DNA of 34,253 bases. Source: Bacteroidales bacterium (lineage in GTDB: Bacteria; Bacteroidota; Bacteroidia; Bacteroidales; UBA932). The notes under the pieces are model-generated. The model was not told the origin of the DNA, ran no database searches, and was given only the letters and a program-made list of their open reading frames with translations. Shown piece after piece: positions 4,241 to 25,844 of this stretch. Both the position numbers and the translations under genes were made by a program. Position 1 is the stretch's first letter. Every line of letters starts with the position of its first letter. The stretch spans positions 1 through 34,253 of the forward strand of contig JAGBVR010000005.1 of NCBI GenBank assembly GCA_017630215.1, read 5' to 3'.

Positions 4241-6790
4241 TTGGAAGAGAAAAAGAGAACAATCGACACAAGGCTCGAACAGAAGATCGGATTTGACAGA
4301 ATAAGAAGAATCATATCCGACAGATGTTCGACTGCATATGCTGTGGAAAGGGCTGCAACAGAGACCTTTTCGACAAACCCGTCACATATACGCAAAAGAC
4401 TGCTCCTGACAGACGAAATGCGCCTCATAATGATGTTTGAGGACAGTTTCCCTTCAGGCGGCTTCATCGACTGCATTGATTTCCTGAAGCCACTGGAAAG
4501 AAGTTCTGCCGCAATTGACCTTCTGTCACTGCGCAAACTCCGGACTATGCTGGAGACACTCCGAAAGATCACATCCTTTTTCGACGGAGTAAAGGATGGA
4601 GTGTATCCTAACTTGAAAAGAATGAGTTCACGTATCCTGAGTTTCCCTGAAGTACAGCGAAGGATAGACCTTATACTCGACCGATACGGTGACGTAAAGG
4701 ACACGGCATCTGATGCCTTGTATGAAATCAGGAGGGCATTGAAAGAAAAGGAGGGAACCATTTCAAGACGAATGGCAGCCATTCTGAAAAGGGCTCAGGA
4801 AGAAGGTATTGTTGACAGCGATGCAGGAGTCTCCATTCGAGACGGAAAGATGCTCATACCGGTAAGTGCTGCGAACAAGAAGAAGATTCCGGGATTCATA
4901 TACGATGAGTCTGCTACTGGAAAGACAGCATTCATAGAGCCGGCAGAAGTGGTCGAACTTGACAATCAGATAAAGGAACTAAGATTTTCCGAGCAGAGGG
5001 AAATTCTGCGCATTCTGCTGGAATTCACGGAATTCCTTCGTCCTTATATCGCTGATCTTCTTACTGCAGCGAAATATCTGGGAGAAATTGACTTCATCAT
5101 GGCGAAGGCGCAGATTGCCTTGGACTTCATAGCGGGAATGCCGATCATTTCGGATGACGGCCAGATGAACCTTCGCAAAGCCAGACATCCGCTGCTGGAG
5201 CGGGCATTGCGAAAGGAAAAGAAGGAAATCGTGCCTCTTACCGCCACATTGACCAAGGAAAAGCATATTCTTCTGATATCCGGTCCTAATGCCGGAGGTA
5301 AGTCGGTATGTCTGAAGACTGTCGGTCTTCTTCAATATATGTTCCAGTGGGGAATGCTGATTCCTACATCAGAAACTTCCGAGATGCTGGTGTTCGACAG
5401 GATAATGGTCGATATCGGAGACGACCAGTCGATAGACAATGACCTCAGTACCTACAGTTCATTTCTGGGCAACATGAAGGACATGCTCTCATGTGCCGAC
5501 GAAAAGACACTCGTGCTGATAGACGAATTCGGTTCCGGCACCGAGCCTGCTGCCGGAGGTGCCATCGCAGAGGCCATTCTGAGCGAACTCGACAAGAGAG
5601 GAACTTATGGCGTAATCACCACCCATTATACGAATCTGAAGCTATATGCATCACCAGAGACCGGAGTATTGAACGGAGCAATGATGTTTGACGTGAAGAA
5701 CATAGCACCTCTGTTCAAGCTTGAGATGGGACTGCCGGGCAATTCCTTCGCATTTGAACTTGCACGCAAGATGGGACTGCCGGAAAACATAATCAAGGAT
5801 GCAGAATCACGAGCTGGTGAGGAGTTTGTCGGTATCGAGAGAAACCTGCGCAAGATTGCGCGCAACAGAAAAGCTCTGGATGAAAAACTTGAGCGTATCA
5901 AGCATACCGACAGGACCCTGGAAAACATCACCGAGAAATATCAGAAGGAGCTTCAGCAGATAAAACAGCTCAAGAAGGAGATCCTCGACCAGGCGAAAAA
6001 GGAAGCGCAGGAAATAATCCAGGGCGCCAACAAGCAGGTGGAAAACACAATCAAGACCATCAAGGAATCACAGGCCGCCAAGGAAGAGACTCAGGAAGCA
6101 AGAAGAGGGCTCCAGGACTTCATGGCAATACTTGCCGCAAAGAAAGAGCAGGAGCAGAAGGAAAAGGAAGATTACATCGAGCGCAAGATAAAGCAGATCG
6201 ATGCCCGCAAGGAAAGGCAGAAACAAAGAAAGGCTAGGAAAGCCGATGAAAAGGCCGCACAGGAACTTCTCGAGCAGCAGGCAGAGAAAGAAAGAATCGA
6301 AGCATTCAAGTCTGCTCCTCTGAAAGTCGGAGAGAAAGTTAGAGTGAAGGAAAACGGCATGGTAGGAGAGATTGCCAAGGTTTCTGCGAAAGCCGTAGTC
6401 GTGGTAATCGGCAATATCAGCAGCAAGATGCCTCTGGACAAGGTGGAAAGAATCACTTCCAATGAATTCAAGAGTGCCGTAAAAGAGACCGCAAGGCCTG
6501 TTTCAACTATCAGATACGATTCGTCCATCAGCGAAAGAAAGCTGAATTTCAGCACCGAAATGGATGTAAGGGGCGAAAGATTGAACGATGCTGTGGAAAA
6601 GGTTACCAGATATGTCGATGATGCCGTCATGCTCGGGGTACCTTCAGTGAGGATCATCCATGGAAAGGGAACAGGTGTCCTTCGCGACGAGCTTCAGAAA
6701 CTTATCCGTACAATACCGGGAGTAGCAAGCGTAAAGGACGAGCACATCCAGTTCGGCGGAACAGGAGTCACCATTGTAACATTTGACTGA
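4241..6790 (+). CDS. mutS2: Endonuclease MutS2 (MutS-family ATPase with Smr domain)
   Basis: MutS2 proteins bind branched DNA or collided ribosomes, depending on species, and carry a C-terminal Smr nuclease-like domain. The 849 residues include the conserved N-terminal EQKIGFDRIRRIIS, which begins about 13 residues after the TTG start and so fixes that start. A MutS core and clamp follow. The Walker A GPNAGGKS is at 348-355 and Walker B LIDEFGSGTEPA has D428/E429. A long charged coiled coil runs about 520-690, then a KOW-like stretch (KVGEKVRVKENGMVGEI). The Smr domain has MDVRG at 774-778 and HGKGTG from H807. All key motifs are intact. It lies in a run with cdaA upstream and a DUF4878 lipoprotein downstream. 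Confidence 0.95.
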   Translation: MEEKKRTIDTRLEQKIGFDRIRRIISDRCSTAYAVERAATETFSTNPSHIRKRLLLTDEMRLIMMFEDSFPSGGFIDCIDFLKPLERSSAAIDLLSLRKLRTMLETLRKITSFFDGVKDGVYPNLKRMSSRILSFPEVQRRIDLILDRYGDVKDTASDALYEIRRALKEKEGTISRRMAAILKRAQEEGIVDSDAGVSIRDGKMLIPVSAANKKKIPGFIYDESATGKTAFIEPAEVVELDNQIKELRFSEQREILRILLEFTEFLRPYIADLLTAAKYLGEIDFIMAKAQIALDFIAGMPIISDDGQMNLRKARHPLLERALRKEKKEIVPLTATLTKEKHILLISGPNAGGKSVCLKTVGLLQYMFQWGMLIPTSETSEMLVFDRIMVDIGDDQSIDNDLSTYSSFLGNMKDMLSCADEKTLVLIDEFGSGTEPAAGGAIAEAILSELDKRGTYGVITTHYTNLKLYASPETGVLNGAMMFDVKNIAPLFKLEMGLPGNSFAFELARKMGLPENIIKDAESRAGEEFVGIERNLRKIARNRKALDEKLERIKHTDRTLENITEKYQKELQQIKQLKKEILDQAKKEAQEIIQGANKQVENTIKTIKESQAAKEETQEARRGLQDFMAILAAKKEQEQKEKEDYIERKIKQIDARKERQKQRKARKADEKAAQELLEQQAEKERIEAFKSAPLKVGEKVRVKENGMVGEIAKVSAKAVVVVIGNISSKMPLDKVERITSNEFKSAVKETARPVSTIRYDSSISERKLNFSTEMDVRGERLNDAVEKVTRYVDDAVMLGVPSVRIIHGKGTGVLRDELQKLIRTIPGVASVKDEHIQFGGTGVTIVTFD

Positions 6791-15174: not shown

Positions 15175-15208
15175 AAAAACCTCTACAATTCCTCTCAGAG
15201 AGGTTTTT
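15175..15208 (+). terminator. Rho-independent terminator after the S46 peptidase gene
   Basis: AAAAACCTCT (15175-15184) pairs perfectly with AGAGGTTTTT (15199-15208). An alternative inner palindrome, CCTCTC-A-GAGAGG (15191-15203), is followed directly by TTTTT. It begins 20 bases after the stop and could work in both directions. Confidence 0.75.
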
Positions 15209-15336
15209 AAAAAGACAGAAATATGCGTATCCATCTTACTCATTATCAGATAGATACGCTTTATCTTTATATAGTACACATTTAACTCAAAATTCATAGC
15301 TAGTACCTCTACAAGAGAAAATTCGGCAGCAAATAC

Positions 15337-15344
15337 TAACTTTG
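15337..15344 (+). promoter_or_regulatory. -7 box opening the phosphate-themed block
   Basis: TAACTTTG fits TAnnTTTG, 24 bases before the ATG at 15369. No TTG is present at ideal distance upstream. It follows a terminator and a 130-bp AT-rich gap with no gene, so this is a natural start for the plus-strand run that follows. Confidence 0.55.
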
Positions 15345-15368: not shown

Positions 15369-16124
15369 ATGAAAACTTCTCTTTCTTTTTTGATTTCAGC
15401 GATGGTGCTGATCATATCATCGTGTTCCGATTCGACAAACTATGCAGTGCCCACAATGGGAGACTACACCATATACGAAGTGGAAATAGGTGAGCTGTCA
15501 GGCATATGTTTCAACAAAGAACGTACAGGATTCCTTGCTTGTGGAGATAAAGGAATAATCAAATCCATATCATTCGATGGCAAGGCTACGGATTTATGGA
15601 AGAATCCTTCTGACATGGAAGGTATCAGCCTCGATCCGTCAAATGGCGACATTTACCTTGCAATCGAAGGAAAGCAGGAGGTACACCGTATTTCAGCACC
15701 GGAATACAACGAACAGAAAGTTCTGTTTGCAATCCAGGAGGCTGTCGACGGACAGTATAAGAACAGCGGTCTGGAAGCCATCGAGTATTACAAGAAGGAC
15801 ATGGTGTTCGTTGGTAGTCAGAAGCAGGCTAATTTATGGAAATGCAAAGTAAACGGAAAAGTGATTTCAAAGGTTTCTCTCTCTGAGTTTGCCGCTGAAA
15901 TAGCTGGCCTTTGCTATGATCCGGAAGCGGAATGGCTATGGATATCAGACTCAAAAAATGCACAGATCTACATATGCAACACTGAGGGCAAACTTCTCGC
16001 AACCTATGACATTCCTTTCATAGACAACGCTGAGTCCATCTGCGTAGACAGGGCTGCAGGATACGTATGGGTGGGAAGCGACGAGGATGCTACCAAATTG
16101 TATAGAATCAAGTTTGAATTCTAA
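15369..16124 (+). CDS. SdiA-regulated / phytase-like beta-propeller lipoprotein
   Basis: The 251-residue lipoprotein starts at the ATG at 15369 (MKTSLSFLISAMVLIISSC, lipobox ISSC, C19). A TTG at 15342 would spoil the signal and overlaps the -7 box. The mature part repeats a beta-propeller blade pattern: ELSGICFNKERTGFLACGD, DMEGISLDPSNGDIYLAIE, GLEAIEYYKKDMVFVG, EIAGLCYDPEAEWLWISD and NAESICVDRAAGYVWVGSD. This fits the SdiA-regulated family, which is related to phytase-like propellers. Enzymatic activity is unproven. It is 11 bases from the DUF47 gene, so it probably shares its mRNA. Confidence 0.8.
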   Translation: MKTSLSFLISAMVLIISSCSDSTNYAVPTMGDYTIYEVEIGELSGICFNKERTGFLACGDKGIIKSISFDGKATDLWKNPSDMEGISLDPSNGDIYLAIEGKQEVHRISAPEYNEQKVLFAIQEAVDGQYKNSGLEAIEYYKKDMVFVGSQKQANLWKCKVNGKVISKVSLSEFAAEIAGLCYDPEAEWLWISDSKNAQIYICNTEGKLLATYDIPFIDNAESICVDRAAGYVWVGSDEDATKLYRIKFEF

Positions 16125-16135
16125 TATCCTGTAAG

Positions 16136-16783
16136 ATGTTTGGACGCAAAAAAATAAATAAGCTCATAGAAGATATAGATCGTTATTTCGATCTTATCGA
16201 CCAATCTATGCTTGTATTCAAAGAGGGCGTGCGTAACTATCTCTATTCAAATCCAAAAGATTTTTCGGAAAATCTCAAGAATATTTCCCTTTATGAGGGT
16301 CAGTCAGATATCCTCAGAAGAGAAATAGAGAATGCATTGTTTACCCAGACAGCCCTCACCCATTCAAGAGGAGACATAATGCGTCTGCTGGAAAAGACAA
16401 AAAACATCATAGACCTTCTGAACGACAGTCTTTTCCAATTCGAGATAGAGACACCTTTCATTCCGTCGGAGCTGAATCCTGAATTCATGAAGCTGACAGA
16501 GTTTTCCACATTGGCCATAGAGGCGGTAATTCCTGCAGCCAAGGCATACTTCAAGGCATCGGAAACCATTCCCGATAAAATCAGCAGGGCGTATTTTTAT
16601 GAGAAGGAAGCTGTAAAATATTCTCAGACGATCAAACGCACGGTTTTTCACAATATGACTTCTCTCAAGCTTAGTGAGAAGTTTCATTTGAGGTATTTTG
16701 CCTTGCACATTGAAAATCTTTCCAAGGCAGCGGAAGCTGTTGCAGATCAGCTCGCTGTAATGGCTATCAAGAGAAGTTTGTAA
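16136..16783 (+). CDS. DUF47 / PhoU-like phosphate transport regulator
   Basis: A 215-residue all-helical cytosolic protein. It has the DUF47 signatures YEGQSDILRREIENALF (53-69) and SRGDIMRLLEKTKNIIDLLND (77-97), plus a second acidic PhoU-like helix near the C-terminus (HIENLSKAAEAVADQL). DUF47 proteins are encoded next to PiT-type phosphate permeases and are thought to modulate them. Here the stop codon is one base before the start of a gene whose product has a PiT-like membrane domain, so coupling is likely. The ATG at 16136 leaves an 11-base gap to the upstream lipoprotein gene. Confidence 0.87.
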   Translation: MFGRKKINKLIEDIDRYFDLIDQSMLVFKEGVRNYLYSNPKDFSENLKNISLYEGQSDILRREIENALFTQTALTHSRGDIMRLLEKTKNIIDLLNDSLFQFEIETPFIPSELNPEFMKLTEFSTLAIEAVIPAAKAYFKASETIPDKISRAYFYEKEAVKYSQTIKRTVFHNMTSLKLSEKFHLRYFALHIENLSKAAEAVADQLAVMAIKRSL

Positions 16784-16784
16784 A

Positions 16785-18413
16785 ATGCAGGTGCTCTGTC
16801 TCATATTATTCCTGTCCGTAGCTGCTCTTTGGTTCTTCACCAATGAGTACAACACCTTGTTCGGCGTTTACAGACCGGCATGTTCCATGAGAATCATGAG
16901 CTTCAACTTCCTGCTTTTCATCGGCCTCCTCACAGCCTTGAATTTCAGTAACGATGTAAGAAACTCCACGACTGATGCATTGGATATCAATAATTTTGAT
17001 AACAATCTGGCAATGCTTGCACTTCTTCTGGCACTTATTGTCCTGATGATATTGAAATTCCTTGGTATCAAAGGTTCGGCTACATATGCCATTTTAGGAT
17101 CACTTATGGCTTATGGCTTAATAACCGACGAAGCTTATCATTTGAAATGGAGCTTTATCGCATCCTATCTTGCAGCACCTGTCATGGCCTTTACTATTTC
17201 AGCAGGTATAAGATATTTATTGAAGACAGTATTTTCCAAAGTCCGCATTCACCTGATAACCATGTCTTACTATATGAGGATGGTGATTATATTGTGCATA
17301 GTACTGACAATCATTTCTTTAGGTCTTAATTGGGGAGGCATGCTGCTTGGAATAGGATATAAACTTGCAGAGGGGAAGGCCGTAGCCATATGCGCATCAT
17401 TCATAGTTGCCGGCATCATATTGATAACCAGAATTTTCGACAGAACTTACGAGCACCAGAGTACCGGAATGTATGCTGATTTCTCCATCTATGCAATCGC
17501 TTCCGTCGGATTTTCTGTTGCAGCCACATTGATGATTTTCTCCTTCGGCTCCATCACTGCACTTGCAAGAATCTCTCCGGTTCCGCTTTCTGTACCTACA
17601 CTCGTAACATGCGCTATTGCCGGTACAGAAATCATACAGAAAACGCGGCTTATCAGTAATTCCGATTATATAAAAGAAGGTATAGCTTCAATTGCAACTC
17701 CGGGGTTATCATTCATATTTACATTCATTGTTCTGGATATAATGGGAGAGAATCCTGCTGATGGTATCAGAGATCTGACTTCGATAGCAGCATCGTTAGT
17801 GATTCTGGCAGCTATTTCATTCGCAGGATATGTGAGACGGCAGCAGATGCTGAAAAAAGCCACAGAAAGGCTTGTATATACCCAGCAGCAACAGATATAC
17901 GAAAATTCACGTGCGCTCAATGATATGGAGCTGAAGGTAGTGATTTCTGAAAATCAAGCATTGCACAATGCCGTGGAAATGAAGAGACAGGAGGTGATGA
18001 ACATTGCTTTAAGTATCGTGGAACAGAAGGAATATCTTCAATCCTTGAATGAGATTGTCAAGAAACTATCTTCATCAAAGGACGAAGAAGAAAAGAACGG
18101 ATATATTTCCCAGCTCAGCTCTTCCCTCCGACAAAGGATTTCATACAACAGCGAAATAGATTCACAATATTTCTATGCACAGGCCGAATCTCTTCACGAA
18201 GACTTCAACGCCAAGCTGTCAGAGAATTTTCCGGATCTGACTCTGCAGGAAAAGCGTCTGGCAACCCTTCTCAGGCTTGGATTTTCATCCAAATACATTG
18301 CCTCACTGATGAATATAACACCTAAAAGTGTGGAAATAAGCAGGTATAGGCTGAGGCAGAAATTAGGCTTGTCAAAAGGAGACAACCTTGTAAATTATAT
18401 AAAATCTATATAA
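16785..18413 (+). CDS. PiT-permease-like membrane protein fused to a C-terminal LuxR-type HTH
   Basis: The 542 residues form an unusual fusion. Residues 1-350 hold about eleven membrane segments. An FSNDVRN stretch (54-60) and IKGSATYAILGSLMAYGL (95-112), followed by a W and an AAP-containing helix (122-145), resemble the ND and PxSTTH-G-G motifs of PiT phosphate permeases. A weaker second copy (GLNWGGMLLG at 180-189, PLSVPTLVTCAIAG at 267-280) has lost key residues. A coiled coil (about 352-430) and a linker lead to an HTH (485-542; LQEKRLATLLRLGFSSKYIA, then TPKSVEISRYRLRQKLG) like those of Bacteroidota LuxR-type regulators. I infer a transporter-derived membrane transcription factor. The PiT assignment is by eye; the HTH is firm. 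Confidence 0.75.
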   Translation: MQVLCLILFLSVAALWFFTNEYNTLFGVYRPACSMRIMSFNFLLFIGLLTALNFSNDVRNSTTDALDINNFDNNLAMLALLLALIVLMILKFLGIKGSATYAILGSLMAYGLITDEAYHLKWSFIASYLAAPVMAFTISAGIRYLLKTVFSKVRIHLITMSYYMRMVIILCIVLTIISLGLNWGGMLLGIGYKLAEGKAVAICASFIVAGIILITRIFDRTYEHQSTGMYADFSIYAIASVGFSVAATLMIFSFGSITALARISPVPLSVPTLVTCAIAGTEIIQKTRLISNSDYIKEGIASIATPGLSFIFTFIVLDIMGENPADGIRDLTSIAASLVILAAISFAGYVRRQQMLKKATERLVYTQQQQIYENSRALNDMELKVVISENQALHNAVEMKRQEVMNIALSIVEQKEYLQSLNEIVKKLSSSKDEEEKNGYISQLSSSLRQRISYNSEIDSQYFYAQAESLHEDFNAKLSENFPDLTLQEKRLATLLRLGFSSKYIASLMNITPKSVEISRYRLRQKLGLSKGDNLVNYIKSI

Positions 18414-18446: not shown

Positions 18447-19880
18447 ATGAAAAAGGTAATTTTACTTTCTGCATTGGCATTATCAATGTCATTTGCTGCA
18501 GTAGCTCAGCAGAACGATGCTGTAGAGACTGAGGTAAACCAGTATGGCCAGAAGGTTGCCGCACTGCCTGTCGATGCGACAGTCCAGGATGGTATCCTCG
18601 TATTCCAGAACAAGAGCGCAAACTACAAGATGTGGTTTGACGCACGTCTTCAGGCAGATGCTGCCGTTTATTTCGGCGCTCCTGATTTCTGTGCAAAGGA
18701 ACTCGACGGAAAGAGCAATACAAGCCATATCGGTAACGGTATGAGCCTTCGTCGTACCCGTTTCGCTGTAAAGGCACAGCTCGACAAGAACTGGTATGGT
18801 GAAATCGACACAGACTGGACAAGCGGTACACCTGAGATCAAGGATGCTTACCTTGGTTTCACAGGTGTAAAAGGCCTCGAAATCAAGGCCGGTAACTTCA
18901 AGGAGAACTTCTCTATCCAGAGAAACACCACCTCACGTTACCTTATGTTCATGGAGCGTGCAATGGTGACTTACCTCGCTCCATCTCGTCACCTTGGTAT
19001 CAATGCAAGATACTCTCACAATTGGTTCTGGGCTTCAGCTGGTGTTTTCGGTCCTGAGCTCAGCAGCTCGGAGGAGCAGGTAGCGATGGAGGACGGTAAT
19101 AAGGACTATGGATACAACGAGGGACTTTCTTACACCGGTAAGCTCGTTTTCCGTCCGCTCTACAAGTCAACAACATCTTCTCTCCACATCGGTGGTGCGG
19201 TTTCATACAGAAATCCTAAGCTCACAAGCACTGACGGTTATTATGTAGGCCGCTACAGCTCACGTAACTCGACAAACATCAACCGCAAGAAGTATCTTGA
19301 TACTGACGACGTAAAGGGTCTCGACCATGAGCTCGCATGGACAGTAGAGCTCGCAGGCCACTGGAAACAGCTCCGTTATGAGACTGCATACATCGCACGC
19401 GGTATGTATCTTGACCAGAAGGTGAATCCGCTCCCTACACAGTGGGCTGAGGGTTGGTATGCACAGGCAAGCTGGCTCCTCTTCGGTGGTACACAGAACT
19501 ATGATGCTGATGGTGCGAAGTATACTCGTACTACATCTGAGCACAAGTGGGGTAACCTCGAAATTGCATTCCGTTATGAGTATGCCGACTTCAACACAGG
19601 TAAGCTTTTCTCAAGCAAGGCAGCTGATACAAACATCTTCGGAGGTAGCGGCGAGGCATACACTATCGGTCTTAACTACTACCCTTCAAAGAACGTAAAG
19701 ATCGTCCTCAACTGGCAGTATAACAACAACGACCGTTATGCTAACGCAAAGGGCAAGAGCTACGTAGGATACGATGCAAAGGGACTTCCTACAAAAGATC
19801 CTAAGAAGGTCGATGCTCCGGCAGGCAAGGCTGGTGTAGATTACCAGATGCTTGCTCTTCGTTTCCAGGTTGCATTCTAA
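18447..19880 (+). CDS. Porin O/P family outer-membrane protein
   Basis: Predicted outer-membrane beta-barrel of 477 residues in the phosphate-selective porin O/P family. It has a signal peptide (MKKVILLSALALSMSFAAVAQ). The conserved opening covers DGILVFQNKSANYKMWFDAR and GMSLRRTRFAVKAQLDKNWYGEID. Next come KDAYLGF, then KAGNFKENFSIQ and RYLMFMERAM. The barrel ends in a terminal phenylalanine (ALRFQVAF), the outer-membrane assembly signal. Codon use is strongly biased (CGT, CTC, AAG, TAC), like the ribosomal genes, implying high expression. In Pseudomonas the family takes up phosphate or polyphosphate; many Bacteroidota members have unknown substrates. It follows the PiT-HTH gene by 33 bases. 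Confidence 0.9.
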   Translation: MKKVILLSALALSMSFAAVAQQNDAVETEVNQYGQKVAALPVDATVQDGILVFQNKSANYKMWFDARLQADAAVYFGAPDFCAKELDGKSNTSHIGNGMSLRRTRFAVKAQLDKNWYGEIDTDWTSGTPEIKDAYLGFTGVKGLEIKAGNFKENFSIQRNTTSRYLMFMERAMVTYLAPSRHLGINARYSHNWFWASAGVFGPELSSSEEQVAMEDGNKDYGYNEGLSYTGKLVFRPLYKSTTSSLHIGGAVSYRNPKLTSTDGYYVGRYSSRNSTNINRKKYLDTDDVKGLDHELAWTVELAGHWKQLRYETAYIARGMYLDQKVNPLPTQWAEGWYAQASWLLFGGTQNYDADGAKYTRTTSEHKWGNLEIAFRYEYADFNTGKLFSSKAADTNIFGGSGEAYTIGLNYYPSKNVKIVLNWQYNNNDRYANAKGKSYVGYDAKGLPTKDPKKVDAPAGKAGVDYQMLALRFQVAF

Positions 19881-19907: not shown

Positions 19908-21467
19908 ATGAAAAAGATATTTTTGGCCCTTGCCGGCCTTGCTGCCTTGGCAGCTGTCTCTTGTGTAAGAGACGAAAATCCTGATTACGTTCCACCTCCA
20001 ACAACAGTGTCAGGTGTCGTGATCAATGAGGTTTACACTTTCAGTAATCAGTCTGAACCAGATGATCTTGACTGGATCGAGCTTTACAATACAACTGATG
20101 CAGATATCGATCTTACTGGTGTTCTCATGTGGGAGAGCGGCGGACAGGAAGAGGCTTGGGCATTCCCTAAGGGATCTGTGATCAAGGCGAAAAGCTACTT
20201 CGTTGTTGACAGCGACAAGTACGGTCTTCTCAACGACCCTATCAATCATCCTGCATGGGGTCTTAGCAAGGGTCCGGATGAATTCATGGTACTCGCTAAC
20301 TCTGACTTCAAGATTATCGATGAAGTGAAGCTTCCAAGCTTGAATGACGGCGAGACATATGGCCGTATAACCGACGGTTCAAGTGAATGGCAGGTATTCC
20401 AGACAGGAACAAAAGGTAAGAAGAACGAAGGTCCTGCACGTCCTGAGTTCACAAACACTCTCGGACTTTACATCAACGAGGTTTACCACGACAACTCTGA
20501 CATCTTCTCTGCTTCAGGCTGGGATTCTTCAGTGGACTTCATCGAGCTTTACAATGCTACAGATGCAGATATCGACATCTCAGGCTTTGAGATTTATGAC
20601 GACACTCAGGCTGATGACAAGAAGTATGTAGTTCCGGCAGGAACCAAGGTTCCGGCTAAGGGTTTCCTTACTTATGACGTTTACAAGGAGAATCCTGCAG
20701 GTCCTGCATTCGGTCTTGGCGCAAGCGGTGACTGGGTATTCATCTTCAAGCCAGGCAAGTCTGAGCTCGTAGACCAGATCGAGATTCCTGCATTCGGCAA
20801 GGATTCAGGTCTTAGAGATATGGGTTATACTTTCGGTCGCAAGCCGGATGGATCAGACAAACTCTTCATCTTCACAGAGGCAACCAGAAACGCTTCTAAC
20901 AACAATGCTCCTGTTCTTGAGGGCTGGGCACCTGAGCAGCCGGAAGATCCGAAGCCAGAGGATCCGAAGCCGACTGCAGCTTCAGTTGTCTTCAACGAGC
21001 TCTGCGGTAACAAGGCATACGACGGACAGAAGTTCATCGAGCTTTACAATGCCGGTGATGCAGAGGTAAGCCTTGCAGGATGGACTATCAGAAAGTATGC
21101 TGCTGATGCAACTGACGTAGAAGGCAAATACAACAACTGCTGGGTAGCTATTGAGGGAATCAAGATCGCTGCCGGCGGATACCTCGTGCTCGCTGCTGAC
21201 CAGACTGACCCTACACTCGGATTCAACGCAGGTCTTTCAGCTAAGAAGGGCGTGAAGTTCGAGCTCGTTGATGCAAGCGGAAAGGTAGTGGACAAGTTTG
21301 TTCGCGGAACTGATGCTGATCCATTCGAAGAGGAGCCGCTTTCAGAGAACAAGGAAGCTTCTTACTCACGCGTTCCTAACGGAACAGGTGACTGGGCTTA
21401 TGCAGCACCTACTCCTGGCGCAGCAAACGGTGAAAAGACCGGTGACATTGAAGGTTATAATAAATAA
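19908..21467 (+). CDS. Lipoprotein with three lamin-tail domains
   Basis: A 519-residue lipoprotein starting MKKIFLALAGLAALAAVSC (lipobox AVSC, C19). Three lamin-tail (LTD) immunoglobulin-like domains cover about 36-165, 185-335 and 358-505. Each has the NE(V/L)..(F/W)IELYN(T/A) signature, at I57, I212 and I377. A PEDPKPEDPKP linker separates domains two and three. The 15 bases ATCGAGCTTTACAAT are identical in all three (20076, 20541, 21036), pointing to internal duplication. Bacterial LTDs are linked to surface or secreted hydrolases, but no enzyme domain is fused here. The gene lies between the porin and two probable triphosphate-binding proteins and shares the porin's biased codon use. Function unknown. 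Confidence 0.85.
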   Translation: MKKIFLALAGLAALAAVSCVRDENPDYVPPPTTVSGVVINEVYTFSNQSEPDDLDWIELYNTTDADIDLTGVLMWESGGQEEAWAFPKGSVIKAKSYFVVDSDKYGLLNDPINHPAWGLSKGPDEFMVLANSDFKIIDEVKLPSLNDGETYGRITDGSSEWQVFQTGTKGKKNEGPARPEFTNTLGLYINEVYHDNSDIFSASGWDSSVDFIELYNATDADIDISGFEIYDDTQADDKKYVVPAGTKVPAKGFLTYDVYKENPAGPAFGLGASGDWVFIFKPGKSELVDQIEIPAFGKDSGLRDMGYTFGRKPDGSDKLFIFTEATRNASNNNAPVLEGWAPEQPEDPKPEDPKPTAASVVFNELCGNKAYDGQKFIELYNAGDAEVSLAGWTIRKYAADATDVEGKYNNCWVAIEGIKIAAGGYLVLAADQTDPTLGFNAGLSAKKGVKFELVDASGKVVDKFVRGTDADPFEEEPLSENKEASYSRVPNGTGDWAYAAPTPGAANGEKTGDIEGYNK

Positions 21468-21491: not shown

Positions 21492-22130
21492 ATGGCAGAA
21501 TTGAAAATCGGTGAAATCTCAAAGCCACGCTTTGAGTTCCGCTCTTTCGGACAGTGCTTCTGTGAGGCACACAAGAGAATGGCTCGTCTTTCTGTTCCTG
21601 TACCTGAAAAGGTATGGGAGCGTCACAGTGACGAGATCTACATCATCTCTAACAAGAACGACATCAACAACACAAAGATCCGCGACGGCAAGATGGACAT
21701 CAAGACTTATGTCCAGACAGTTGACGGACTCGAGCAGTGGAACCCTCTCATGAAGGGTGAGTTCCCTATCTCACGTACAGTTCTCGAGAACGAGGTATTC
21801 CCTGCATTCATGGTGGAGATGCCTGCTCTTGACAAGGACGAGTACACATACGAGGAGTTCATCGCAATGGTAAAGGCCAATCCTGATCTCGCTGCCGTAC
21901 GCGTTCACAAGCAGCGCTTCGGCTATATGGTAAACAACACAATCTGCGAGGTAGGTAACGTACTGATCAACGGTGCGAAGATCGTTACCATCAACTCAGA
22001 GTCAACAGAAATCGAGGATATCAAGAAGACAATCGCTGACTGCGGTCTCGAAGGTGTAGAGAACATCAACTACCTCCAGGCTATCAAGCGCGTTATCGGA
22101 ATGTCAGACAAACCACTTGCAAACGAATAA
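21492..22130 (+). CDS. Probable divergent CYTH/triphosphate-tunnel-like protein
   Basis: I do not recognise a named family with certainty. The 212-residue soluble protein has alternating charged beta strands typical of triphosphate-tunnel folds: RFEFRSF near the N-terminus, then DEIYIIS, NNTKIRDGKMDIKTYVQ and GLEQWNPLMKGEFP. Later strands are AAVRVHKQRFGYMVNN, TICEVGNVLING and a terminal SESTEIEDIKKTI. The canonical ExExK is not exact (FEFRS). The stop codon is 4 bases before the ATG of a true CYTH gene, so a functional link is likely. Codon use is strongly biased. The assignment rests on strand pattern and neighbour only. Confidence 0.55.
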   Translation: MAELKIGEISKPRFEFRSFGQCFCEAHKRMARLSVPVPEKVWERHSDEIYIISNKNDINNTKIRDGKMDIKTYVQTVDGLEQWNPLMKGEFPISRTVLENEVFPAFMVEMPALDKDEYTYEEFIAMVKANPDLAAVRVHKQRFGYMVNNTICEVGNVLINGAKIVTINSESTEIEDIKKTIADCGLEGVENINYLQAIKRVIGMSDKPLANE

Positions 22131-22134
22131 TATC

Positions 22135-22608
22135 ATGGCACAGGAAGTAGAAAGAAAATTCTTGGTTGCAGGCGACTTCAAGCCGTTTGCAAAGAAGGCT
22201 ACCCGCATCACTCAGGGTTACCTCAGTTCAGTTCCTGAGCGCACTGTACGTGTACGTATCAAGGGCGAGAAGGGATTCATCACCATCAAGGGAATCGGCT
22301 CAGCAAGCGGAGCAAGCCGCTATGAGTGGGAGAAGGAAATCCCTGTAGCAGAAGTAGAGGAACTCCTCAAGATCTGTGAGCCGGGCGTGATCGACAAGAC
22401 TCGTTACCTCGTAGAGGCTGGCGAACACACTTATGAAGTAGACGAATTCTACGGTGACAACGAAGGCCTTACAGTAGCCGAAGTGGAGCTCTCATCTGAG
22501 GACGAGGCATTCGCTAAGCCTGAGTGGCTCGGAGAAGAGGTTACCGGAGATGTGAAGTACTACAACTCTATGCTCATGAAGAACCCATATAAGAACTGGG
22601 CGAAATAA
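22135..22608 (+). CDS. CYTH domain protein (triphosphate tunnel metalloenzyme)
   Basis: A 157-residue CYTH protein. The ATG at 22135 puts the diagnostic ExExK (E4-V-E6-R-K8) at the very N-terminus. A TTG at 22117 overlaps the previous gene and is unlikely. Later tunnel strands read RTVRVRIKGEKGFITIKG, RYEWEKEIPV, DKTRYLVEAGEHTYEVDEF and LTVAEVELS, giving the alternating Arg/Lys and Glu residues that hold metal-triphosphate. Relatives hydrolyse inorganic triphosphate or nucleoside triphosphates, and class IV adenylate cyclases share the fold. Bacterial members of this size are usually triphosphatases. It is followed by a cluster of palindromic repeats. Confidence 0.9.
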   Translation: MAQEVERKFLVAGDFKPFAKKATRITQGYLSSVPERTVRVRIKGEKGFITIKGIGSASGASRYEWEKEIPVAEVEELLKICEPGVIDKTRYLVEAGEHTYEVDEFYGDNEGLTVAEVELSSEDEAFAKPEWLGEEVTGDVKYYNSMLMKNPYKNWAK

Positions 22609-22730: not shown

Positions 22731-24341
22731 ATGACAGACAAGAACACTGAACTGGACCAGGAGCAGGTTTTCGACCCGCTGGACATGAACAATTACAAGG
22801 TGGAAAAACTTCCGAAGATGGAGAAATCCGGCTTCGAGAAATGGATGGCCCGTCTGGGTGGACCTATTGCCGCCATTATATTCATCCTGATATATTGGGT
22901 GATTGATATCCCATTGTTTGACAATCTGGATTTCTCCGGACTTTCAGACAAGGCTCAGGCCAGACTGAATGTAATCGGCGAAGCGGCATTCATCAGGGCC
23001 TGCTACGCAATGCTGGCAATATTCTGTGCTTCCATCGTGCTTTGGATTACAGAAGCCGTACAGAGTTACCTGACTTCGCTTATGGTGATTCTTGGTGTCA
23101 TCTTATGCGGCGTAACGACTCAGAAGGATGCTTTTGCACAGCTCGGACATCCGGTGATGTGGCTGAATATCCTTTCATTCATTCTCGCCAGCATGCTGGT
23201 GAAGACACGTGTTGCAAAAAGATTTGCGCTCTGGTTCGTACTGAAGTTCGGTAAGAGCGCTACCGGTGTCTTCTTCAGTTTTCTTGTAATCAATGTAGTA
23301 TTGTCCCTCTTTATTTCAGCTACGACCGTCAAGGCGACAATACTCCTTCCTATCTTCATGGTCGTGGCAGCAATATTCGGAGCAAGTCAGGGCGAGCGCA
23401 ACAACTTCGGACGAAACCTTGTGCTCCAGAATCTTTTCCAGATCAATATCGGTGCAAGTGCGTTCATGACAGGCTCCGGTGCCAACCTGCTCGCCGTATC
23501 ACTTCTTACAGGCGCATACAGCTCTGTCTCGATGATATATTCAGACTGGCTTGCAGCAGCTTTCCCACTTGCCATGATACTTCTTCTTATCGGCTGGTTC
23601 ATCGGAGCGAAGGTCATATTCCCTCTCAAACCGGAAGAAAGAAAGCCTCAGATCCAAGGTGGAATGGAACGTCTCCGTCAGGAACTGAATTCCATGGGCA
23701 AGATGACTGTCGACGAATTCAAAGCGATTGCGATATTCGTAGGCGTGCTTGCCATGTGGGTTACTGAAAACTGGCACGGAGTTTCCGCAGAGGTCGTGGT
23801 ATTGATCGGCGCAGTCATTGCATTGCTTCCGGGCATCGGCGTTGTCAAATGGAACGATGTGGACATTCCTTGGCATCTCATGCTTTTCTCAGCCGGTGCA
23901 TATGTCATCGGATCAGGACTTAACGCTACCGATCTCCCTTCAATGATGGTAGGTGCAGGAATGGATGCCCTCGGCATCACGGCCCAGACTCCTTTCTTCG
24001 TCCTGTATCTTCTCCTTACCGGTCTGATGCTCTTCAGTGCATTGGTCTTCCAGTCAAAAAACATGAGAGCATTGGTTTTCATACCGATTGCCATAGGAGT
24101 CGAGCAGCAGTTCGGCTTGCCACCTCTCTGTCTCTCATTCCCGGTATCTCTTCTGATCGAACATGTTTACGTGCTGCCGTTCAACAGTAAACCTGCAGCG
24201 CTGCTATATACTACCAACCATTACAGCTGGAGCGACACTTTCAAATTCGGAATCACAATGATGCTCATCGCCTGGGTAATGATTCTGGTATGGGGAGAGA
24301 CTGTCCTTCAATGGCTTGGATACACACCTGGTTTGTTTTAA
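22731..24341 (+). CDS. SLC13/DASS family sodium-anion transporter
   Basis: A 536-residue inner-membrane protein with an N-terminal soluble stretch of about 45 residues and roughly eleven membrane segments. It has DASS features: LWITEAVQSYLTSLMVILGVI near the start and the first hairpin SATTVKATILLP (S196 onward), corresponding to the SNT substrate and sodium motif. TGSGANLLAV (T247 to V256) follows. A second half repeats the fold (LFSAGAYVIGSG, then a region ending FNSKPAALLYTTNHYSW). Family substrates are dicarboxylates, sulfate or phosphate, and the sequence alone does not decide. Next to porin O/P, DUF47 and CYTH genes, phosphate is a reasonable guess. Codon use is less biased than in the preceding genes. 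Confidence 0.87.
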   Translation: MTDKNTELDQEQVFDPLDMNNYKVEKLPKMEKSGFEKWMARLGGPIAAIIFILIYWVIDIPLFDNLDFSGLSDKAQARLNVIGEAAFIRACYAMLAIFCASIVLWITEAVQSYLTSLMVILGVILCGVTTQKDAFAQLGHPVMWLNILSFILASMLVKTRVAKRFALWFVLKFGKSATGVFFSFLVINVVLSLFISATTVKATILLPIFMVVAAIFGASQGERNNFGRNLVLQNLFQINIGASAFMTGSGANLLAVSLLTGAYSSVSMIYSDWLAAAFPLAMILLLIGWFIGAKVIFPLKPEERKPQIQGGMERLRQELNSMGKMTVDEFKAIAIFVGVLAMWVTENWHGVSAEVVVLIGAVIALLPGIGVVKWNDVDIPWHLMLFSAGAYVIGSGLNATDLPSMMVGAGMDALGITAQTPFFVLYLLLTGLMLFSALVFQSKNMRALVFIPIAIGVEQQFGLPPLCLSFPVSLLIEHVYVLPFNSKPAALLYTTNHYSWSDTFKFGITMMLIAWVMILVWGETVLQWLGYTPGLF

Positions 24342-24348
24342 AGATATT

Positions 24349-24369
24349 ATCCCCGGCCTTACCGGGGAT
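24349..24369. repeat. Palindromic repeat, ATCCCCGG/CCGGGGAT family, last copy
   Basis: ATCCCCGG (24349-24356) and CCGGGGAT (24362-24369) are a perfect 8-bp inverted repeat with a 5-base loop, 7 bases after the SLC13 stop and 14 bases before the next ATG. It could act as a weak terminator or mRNA end stabiliser. Confidence 0.8.
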
Positions 24370-24383
24370 TGCAATTCCATATT

Positions 24384-25844
24384 ATGATATCGATACAGGC
24401 AAAGAAACACGACAACTTCTCCATTGAATTCAAATTCGGTTTCAACAGCAAAGAAGGCGGAGTCCGCGATGACTTCTCAGTCAACGCGTGGATGTTCGTA
24501 CCCAACAGCCTTGATATCAACCCTGAAAACTACGGTAAAAAGCAGTTTTACAGAGATATAAAGTCCAATATAAGGCTGATTACCCCTGTGTACCTTATGC
24601 GTGATATTGCACAGGATAGCTCCCTCCCTCTGGTATCTCTGAAAAGAGCGTTGGAAAATATTGTAAGTACCCCCTCTCAAGAGAATCTGGATGCATATGA
24701 ATATCATCTGAAGATGTTTGCTGCAATATTCAAGAGCGCTCTGCGTGATCTGGCAGCTCATATTTCAGCTGTCAGATGTCTGGAGTCGGCAGAATATCTT
24801 GTGGATGACTACACCTGCAATTCGATGCTTGTACTGGAAAAATTCAGGGCATTGTATCAGATAATCGACGTACCGACAGTCACAGAAAAGACCCGCAGAC
24901 TTTTCCGCCTGTGTGATGAATTCATGAGTCATGTCGTGGAATTGAGGACTATCAGGATCATCAAGGTAATTGATGAGGAAACTGATTCTCCTATGTACAT
25001 CAAGATCCGCGAGAAATTCATGTCTCTCATCATTAGCGAGCATGATTACAAACTATCTCAAGGATACGGTGTGATGAACGAAGATGCTTCCCATAACAGG
25101 AATCTGGTCTTTCACAGGGGAATGCTGAAGAAATTCATCGAAAGCGAGCTATACATCCGCCTGGATAAGAAGAAGGACGGAGTAGCAGTTCAGCAGATAT
25201 ACTACAGCATAGCTGCAGGAGTCGCCATGATTTTCGCCACAGCGGTTGCCTGGTATTCACAGGTCAAATATGGAAACATCACCTGGCCTCTATTTATTGT
25301 TCTTGTGGTAAGTTACATGCTCAAGGACAGGATAAAGGACCTCCTGCGATATTATTTCGCACACAGGCTAGGCAATAAATACTACGACAAGAAAGCGACA
25401 ATAACCATCGGAAAGACGCGTGTAGGCGAGATAAAGGAAGGCTTTGACTTTATTTCCGAGACCAAGACTCCTGCAGAAGTCCTGAAGATGCGTGAACAGT
25501 CATCATCTGTCGAGGATGAATCAAGAATATTTGAAGAAAAGATACTCCTCTACCGCAAGCACGTCACCATAGATGACGAGGCACTTGCTGCAAATGATGA
25601 TTATCCGATGAGAGGCATCAATGAGATTATGCGTCTGCACCTTAACAGGCTTACCCATAAGATGGACAATCCCGAAGTGCCCATAGACTCAATAGACGAA
25701 AACGGCAATATCCTGCAGCTAAAGGTCCAGAAACTATATCATGTCAATATAGTATTCCAGCTTCAGCATGATAGTGAAACGGAGTATCACCATTTCCGCA
25801 TATCAATGACCAGAAACGGAGTTATCGATATAACAAAACTTTAG
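24384..25844 (+). CDS. Two-TM protein of unknown function
   Basis: I do not recognise the family. From the ATG at 24384 it has 486 residues; a TTG at 24369 lies inside the palindrome and is unlikely. About 1-265 is soluble and mixed alpha/beta, starting SIQAKKHDNFSIEFKFGFNSK, with helical stretches rich in charged residues. Two membrane segments follow (about 273-292 and 299-315), then a basic stretch and a second soluble domain of about 165 residues ending in beta strands (LYHVNIVFQLQHDSETEYHHFRIS). The stop codon overlaps that of the convergent GH5 gene by three bases (TTAG at 25841-25844). It is the last plus-strand gene of the block. Function unknown. Confidence 0.75.
   Translation: MISIQAKKHDNFSIEFKFGFNSKEGGVRDDFSVNAWMFVPNSLDINPENYGKKQFYRDIKSNIRLITPVYLMRDIAQDSSLPLVSLKRALENIVSTPSQENLDAYEYHLKMFAAIFKSALRDLAAHISAVRCLESAEYLVDDYTCNSMLVLEKFRALYQIIDVPTVTEKTRRLFRLCDEFMSHVVELRTIRIIKVIDEETDSPMYIKIREKFMSLIISEHDYKLSQGYGVMNEDASHNRNLVFHRGMLKKFIESELYIRLDKKKDGVAVQQIYYSIAAGVAMIFATAVAWYSQVKYGNITWPLFIVLVVSYMLKDRIKDLLRYYFAHRLGNKYYDKKATITIGKTRVGEIKEGFDFISETKTPAEVLKMREQSSSVEDESRIFEEKILLYRKHVTIDDEALAANDDYPMRGINEIMRLHLNRLTHKMDNPEVPIDSIDENGNILQLKVQKLYHVNIVFQLQHDSETEYHHFRISMTRNGVIDITKL

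Follow-up and report, generated by a model that had tools for sequence, protein, structure and literature searches.

We analysed a 34,253-nucleotide stretch of DNA from a Bacteroidales bacterium (contig JAGBVR010000005.1; the whole stretch is called the window), in which an open reading frame (ORF) for a DUF47 protein (16136-16783) is separated by a single base from an ORF for a 542-amino-acid (aa) protein (16785-18413) that joins a PiT-type membrane domain to a LuxR-type helix-turn-helix (HTH). This 542-aa protein is probably a membrane-embedded one-component transcription activator that descended from a DUF47-coupled PiT permease and acts on its own operon. A PiT fold, a conserved operon, a single clade, loss of transporter motifs, purifying selection and a conserved promoter box associated with the HTH support this. 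An earlier sequence-only reading had proposed that the protein is a one-component regulator derived from a PiT-like permease and tethered to the membrane, with DUF47, one base away, as a possible cytosolic modulator. The ORF coordinates agree, and the fold, the HTH and the neighbourhood are best read in that way. The regulator's probable binding site, a box repeated in the promoter at 15179-15314, lies outside the interval covered by that reading (16136..18413).

Structure comparison gave residues 1-325 the PiT fold (TmPiT, 6l85) and returned no unrelated fold for the N-terminal region; its match list was filled by HTH rows, and few other membrane folds were compared. The PHO4 profile (PF01384) matched residues 42-162 at 1.2e-7 and 31.5 bits, below the curated cut-off of 33.7. 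Hydropathy gives 9 membrane segments. In the AlphaFold2 model 12 helical elements, of which two are short, precede a 104-residue helix (327-430), in keeping with the "about eleven" helices first proposed. The coiled coil and complete LuxR-type HTH read from the sequence also held up, with this long helix in the model, a GerE profile match at residues 485-531 (26.4 bits, above the cut-off of 23.5) and a LuxR/GerE fold. A DNA-binding domain and transmembrane (TM) segments thus lie on one chain, as in transmembrane one-component regulators, and the HTH is predicted to bind DNA sequence-specifically. Residues ~336-542 match at ~30% the tails of ~950-1000-aa ORFs, and the three of these tested (L016-L018) carry Reg_prop and Y_Y_Y. 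No histidine kinase domain was found in Pfam and NCBIfam scans of the window proteins. The DUF47 ORF matches PF01865 at 43.7 bits (cut-off 24.4).

The transporter motifs were compared in an alignment of the window protein with 73 relatives. The aligned PiT signature in the window protein is WFFTNEYNTLFGVYR (residues 16-30), where the PiT signature SLGANDAANIFG aligns to WFFTNEYNTLFG (residues 16-27). The other PiT motifs PVSTGQ, YSLGANNIAN and PVSSTQ align to KGSATY, ISLGLNWGGM and PLSVPT, respectively. In place of GANDVANA stand TNEYNT and GLNWGG, with E21 and W183. In human PiT2, D28, S113, D506 and S593 are described as required for transport (PMC3126765). Because our own alignment places these residues at the motifs above, both Asp positions are changed in the window protein (one conservatively) and the critical Ser of both halves persists (S98 and S269). 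Among 20 close sequences E21, G180, N182, G184 and P267 are invariant, S98 and W183 are present in 95%, and S269 is absent in some (e.g., L033 and L040). The initial assignment of motifs fared less well. FSNDVRN at residue 54, taken for the PiT ND motif, is not conserved in the alignment of relatives and was discarded, and the reported S-T-G-G segment followed by an AAP helix does not occur as such (the sole STG is at residue 226, AAP at 130). Motif loss had been placed in the second PiT half, which is indeed changed, but the N-terminal signature is lost too (Asp to Glu).

The window-type protein may have lost phosphate transport. Conservation has shifted toward the tail: loci L032-L051 are 34-48% identical to the window protein in the PiT part and 72-86% in the tail. 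In fusions with intact motifs, identity to L143 is 47-86% for the PiT part and 20-75% for the tail (the 20% value is L155, cut by a contig end), with the PiT part ahead of the tail in 23 of 25. There is an alternative, which we consider unlikely: a bifunctional transceptor that has kept anion transport and signals its transport state via the HTH. It would account for purifying selection on the PiT part, for the retention of S98 and N182, and for the intact-motif fusions that occupy the same operon slot in other families; CbrA has been described as a combined transporter and kinase (PMC7096432, PMC13022988). It must also contend with Trp at the second Asp/Asn position in 95% of the close set and Glu at the first in 20/20, at places where D28 and D506 of PiT2 are needed for transport (PMC3126765), with the shift of conservation toward the tail, and with a DASS symporter already in the operon. 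Two observations favour the transceptor or weigh against our preferred activator without transport. In the wider degenerate clade every row has Glu or Asp at the first signature position, and at the second, which is variable, several have Asn, so the pocket is not uniformly destroyed; and the "intact" fusions themselves carry GANN instead of the second GAND.

A low PHO4 score and a fast-changing membrane part would also be expected if the transporter were decaying neutrally and its tail served no purpose. This is very improbable, since dN/dS lies between 0.11 and 0.22 in the PiT part and between 0.02 and 0.06 in the tail (each finite in 7 of 8 pairs, three with saturated dS), and neither part looks like decay. 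No stop codon occurs in 21 aligned proteins, and motif residues are invariant.

The operon is conserved well beyond the window. DUF47 lies directly 5' of the PiT-HTH gene in 21 of 22 close relatives in a contig survey, which is more than chance; L052, the only one without it, is matched in part and abuts the end of a contig. In the order, DUF47 likewise precedes the PiT gene in 29 of the best 30 loci, and the remaining one, L116, begins at a contig edge. Porin_O_P follows directly in 20 of those 21 close loci (L038 has a propeller gene instead) and in 22 of the best 30, among which the HTH is absent from L117, L119, L120 and L122. In a scan of 149 genomes of the window's family, the 11 loci L003-L013 all show the DUF47/PiT-HTH/porin triad; two come from G012 and G111 (L075 and L076), whose motifs are intact, and nine from window-type genomes other than the window's own. 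The fusions of G012 and G111, 583 and 582 aa long, score 188 and 185 bits against PHO4, covering almost the whole profile, and also match GerE. Replacement of the lost PiT by another PiT was considered and set aside, since three window-type genomes (G097, G108 and G129) gave no PHO4 match at E 0.001. The conserved block continues with a lamin-tail domain protein, a conserved unknown, a CYTH protein, a DASS symporter and a second conserved unknown, with gaps in some loci. The architecture had been called unusual. The fusion is real but not peculiar to the window: near full-length matches to the G111 intact fusion occur in 14 families of the order, in no fewer than 22 of the 393 genomes and mostly with intact motifs. 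Among 296 genomes of the phylum from beyond the order, the ten relatives found (L128-L137) lack the HTH and are 387-507 aa PiTs, with DUF47 before 9/10, porin after 9/10 and a DASS-type gene upstream in 6/10. Many of the surveyed genomes are gut or ruminant-gut metagenome-assembled genomes (MAGs). Other routes of phosphate uptake are present in the window's family: Na/Pi cotransporters (PF02690) were found in 12 of 13 genomes tested, including the window's, and PstC passed its cut-off in one of the 13 and was matched below threshold in 7 others. The family also has a second type of DUF47 gene (L054-L071) without an adjacent PiT; these were considered as further regulator partners and set aside, as the 18 fetched stretches hold no relative of the window PiT or HTH.

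In a tree of DUF47 (66 rows, with rows from outside the order as outgroup; L036, L037, L045, L099, L116 and L155 were left out), all 28 degenerate rows fall together in a single clade (100/98) nested within intact-motif rows, and HTH-less rows of the order are scattered. The two loci of the window's family with intact motifs cluster with L141, which comes from another family, and were therefore either retained or horizontally acquired. The L141 DUF47 (5902-6546; genome G464) is 84% identical to that of G111, a possible horizontal operon transfer, and the L141 PiT has a damaged N-terminal signature, GAQGASN. In G066, DUF47 and HTH share one 327-aa frame with no membrane part, with porin after it and one CTATACA upstream. 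A second genome among the 26 of its genus, G543, encodes DUF47 and a window-type PiT-HTH as separate genes. The G066 fusion is a lead only, because it comes from a single fragmented MAG with a run of N inside the frame.

The relatives may therefore show candidate stages from transporter to sensor. We tentatively suggest, with somewhat less confidence than we would give to an even choice, that the operon slot spans the whole route from transporter to transcription factor: DUF47 plus PiT without HTH, DUF47 plus an intact-motif PiT-HTH (a transceptor), the transport-dead, re-shaped window type, and the DUF47-HTH fusion of G066. In that case the HTH would take its signal directly from DUF47, and Bacteroidales would have a phosphate switch free of kinases and of PhoR/PhoB. 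Separately, the HTH-less PiTs L131-L134, L136 and L137 from outside the order (490-507 aa) have a C-terminal extension unlike the HTH tail and a first signature of GANH or GANN, another route away from the canonical PiT. Two PiTs of the order without HTH, L152 (455 aa) and L156 (411 aa), still end in the extra TM segment, a hint that they may have lost the tail.

A short box recurs 5' of these operons, CTCTACAA in the window's family; in the window it lies 5' of the propeller gene that leads the operon. C(T/A)(C/A)TACA has 61 forward matches in 27 loci vs 2.7 expected from shuffles, with 5 on the reverse strand, and CTCTACA is 62x denser in 22 promoters (53 in 5,500 nt) than in the rest of the same loci (43 in 278,647). 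Copies are 11 bp apart in seven loci and 13 bp in four, and in close relatives the distal and proximal copies are 123-127 bp apart. At 17 of 20 close loci a copy lies 20-21 or 30-31 bp ahead of TAnnTTTG, which we take to be the Bacteroidota-type -7 element. These two spacings, one helical turn apart and adjoining the -7 element, suggest activation rather than repression. The window's box-plus-element match is unique in the 2.26 Mb of its genome searched (57.8% complete).

Within 350 nt upstream, C(T/A/C)(C/A)TACA is present in 49 of 51 HTH operons vs 4 of 22 HTH-less operons (L131, L136, L196 and L200; Fisher 2e-11, a test that ignores kinship). HTH and HTH-less operons do not differ in this way on the reverse strand (11/51 vs 3/22). 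Strict CTCTACA, first recognised in the window's family, was then counted in the rest of the order, where 12 of 23 HTH and 0 of 13 HTH-less operons have it (p 0.002). HTH presence was called by hidden Markov model, with L053 set to HTH. Left out of the 51 + 22 were L036, L037 and L045 (near duplicates), L044 and L158 (short upstream), L048 (propeller gene upstream), L122 (same genome as L200), L155 (HTH cut by a contig end), L041, L116 and L135 (no DUF47 gene found by the script), and L052. The recognition-helix Lys (K514 in the window) is present in all 49 HTH operons with the box. The two box-less ones, L079 and L148, are the only ones among the 51 to have lost it: L148 has a wrecked recognition helix and L079 has Ala. 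We take this joint loss of Lys and box (n = 2) as the best evidence that the HTH reads the box. The L079 promoter has three CTTTACA, of four + strand and two - strand copies in the 13-kb locus.

Several points count against the HTH acting through this box. The exceptions with altered Lys are two genomes, and the degenerate consensus was derived in part from the same rows that were then counted with it. HTH and box vary by clade, which leaves only three independent contrasts on supported branches, too few for significance to be attainable (~2 in the expected direction, 0.2 opposite, median p 0.5). The spacing from box to -7 element is confined to close relatives (44 in L053, 34 in L073 and L082), and the remaining farther HTH rows compared do not show it. 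Genome-wide, box plus element is no commoner than a backwards control (21 vs 20 in 14 genomes, L032-L053). By their letters 13 of those 21 matches are the operon site, and 32 of 40 genomes searched, with and without PiT-HTH, have a match, so there is no sign of further regulon targets. The boxes could instead belong to another regulator, e.g., of PhoB type, with the HTH acting elsewhere or only repressing. The 11-bp direct repeats are typical of PhoB/OmpR sites. A PhoRB system is described in Bacteroides fragilis, and the paper, whose available text gives no box sequence, mentions a Pho box ahead of pst (PMC3547664). We regard this as quite unlikely, given that box presence tracks both the HTH and its recognition Lys and that box plus element occurs only at the operon in the part of the window's genome searched.

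Under the activator reading, the PiT fold with its re-shaped pocket would sense either phosphate or a related oxyanion, or else the state of DUF47. The DUF47 protein would dock at the cytosolic face and modulate the PiT-HTH protein, as its relatives probably do for ordinary PiTs. The signal would pass via the extra TM segment, the 104-residue helix and the coiled coil to a dimeric HTH, which would bind the boxes beside the -7 element and switch on the porin, lipoprotein, CYTH protein and DASS symporter genes. Phosphate is the favoured signal because DUF47, Porin_O_P, CYTH and a Phytase-like propeller share the operon. Sulfate or another oxyanion as signal and cargo seems improbable beside these neighbours. 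The Pfam name of the operon symporter is sodium:sulfate symporter, and the best NCBIfam PiT-like match of the intact relatives is the sulfate permease NF053884 (69 and 91 bits, cut-off 400). This model hardly discriminates, since the ordinary PiT L084 hits it too (64 bits), second to PitA (115 bits).

Features of the operon and its promoter in the window
Feature	Position	Strand	Remarks
Distal regulator box ACCTCTACAA	15179..15188	+	exact repeat of proximal copy, spacing 126
Hairpin and T-run, terminator-like, between both boxes	15191..15203	+	
Proximal regulator box ACCTCTACAA	15305..15314	+	its CTCTACA begins 30 bp ahead of the -7 element
TAACTTTG, TAnnTTTG-type -7 element	15337..15344	+	
Beta-propeller type gene, SdiA-regulated / Phytase-like	15369..16124	+	alternative ORF start: TTG 15342
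DUF47 (PhoU_div), 215 aa, proposed cytosolic partner/modulator	16136..16783	+	profile match
PiT-fold membrane domain, residues 1-325	16785..17759	+	E21 for Asp, W183 for Asp/Asn; S98, S269 kept
Extra TM and long helix / coiled coil, residues 327-475	17763..18209	+	model helix 327-430
LuxR/GerE HTH, residues 476-542	18210..18410	+	recognition-helix Lys514
Porin_O_P (phosphate-selective porin family), operon partner	18447..19880	+	profile match, neighbourhood
Operon protein with lamin-tail domains, 3 stretches	19908..21467	+	profile match, neighbourhood
Conserved operon protein, no Pfam/NCBIfam match	21492..22130	+	neighbourhood
CYTH protein, operon	22132..22608	+	neighbourhood
DASS / SLC13-type anion symporter, operon	22731..24341	+	profile match
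Conserved 491-aa protein, no family match, last gene of conserved block	24369..25844	+	

Some further observations concern the same region. Hairpins lie between the distal and proximal boxes in the window (15187-15305) and in the same interval of L033, L035, L038, L043, L046 and L078. They differ in sequence, several with T-runs, and could be a terminator of the upstream gene, an attenuator or a small RNA. CTCTACA occurs 12 times on both strands of the whole window vs 4.2 expected (largest shuffle 10), ten of them outside the promoter. The protein encoded at 21492-22130 is 96-98% identical among close relatives, exceeding DUF47, PiT-HTH and porin there. Propeller-like genes also lie within the operon in L048, L081, L149-L151 and L154.

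If correct, these proposals describe a permease turned gene regulator, with candidate intermediates alive in its relatives and a proposed DNA target. They would offer a possible answer to the role of DUF47 beside PiT transporters and predict a kinase-free phosphate (or oxyanion) switch in Bacteroidales. A literature search for a PiT-LuxR, PiT-derived, DUF47-coupled or DUF47-HTH regulator found none, most subscription papers being outside its reach. Transmembrane transcription regulators, in which Bacteroidia are rich, are likewise one-component and membrane-tethered, and the accessible text of the paper describing them mentions no PiT-derived member (PMC10269533). The tail resembles the coiled coil and HTH of the Reg_prop-Y_Y_Y-TM-HTH regulators of Bacteroidota, whose sensor is a propeller/Y_Y_Y instead of a PiT fold. 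With PiT/SLC20 permeases accompanied by DUF47 (TmPiT, 6l85) the window protein shares fold and gene pairing, but it has lost the signatures, falls below the PHO4 cut-off and has gained an HTH tail. CbrA, an SLC5 transporter joined to a histidine kinase, also unites a transporter fold and a signalling part in one polypeptide; it signals by its kinase domains to CbrB, whereas the window protein carries the DNA-binding domain itself (PMC7096432, PMC13022988). The 12-TM LuxR regulators of Coriobacteriia (DadR, HcdR and CadR) likewise have an N-terminal polytopic membrane domain and a C-terminal LuxR HTH, and are described as transcriptional activators, several encoded near their target genes (PMC9734109). 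Compared by description, these have 10-12 TM segments and answer catechol substrates (PMC9734109), whereas the window protein has a PiT fold, a DUF47 partner and a phosphate-type operon.
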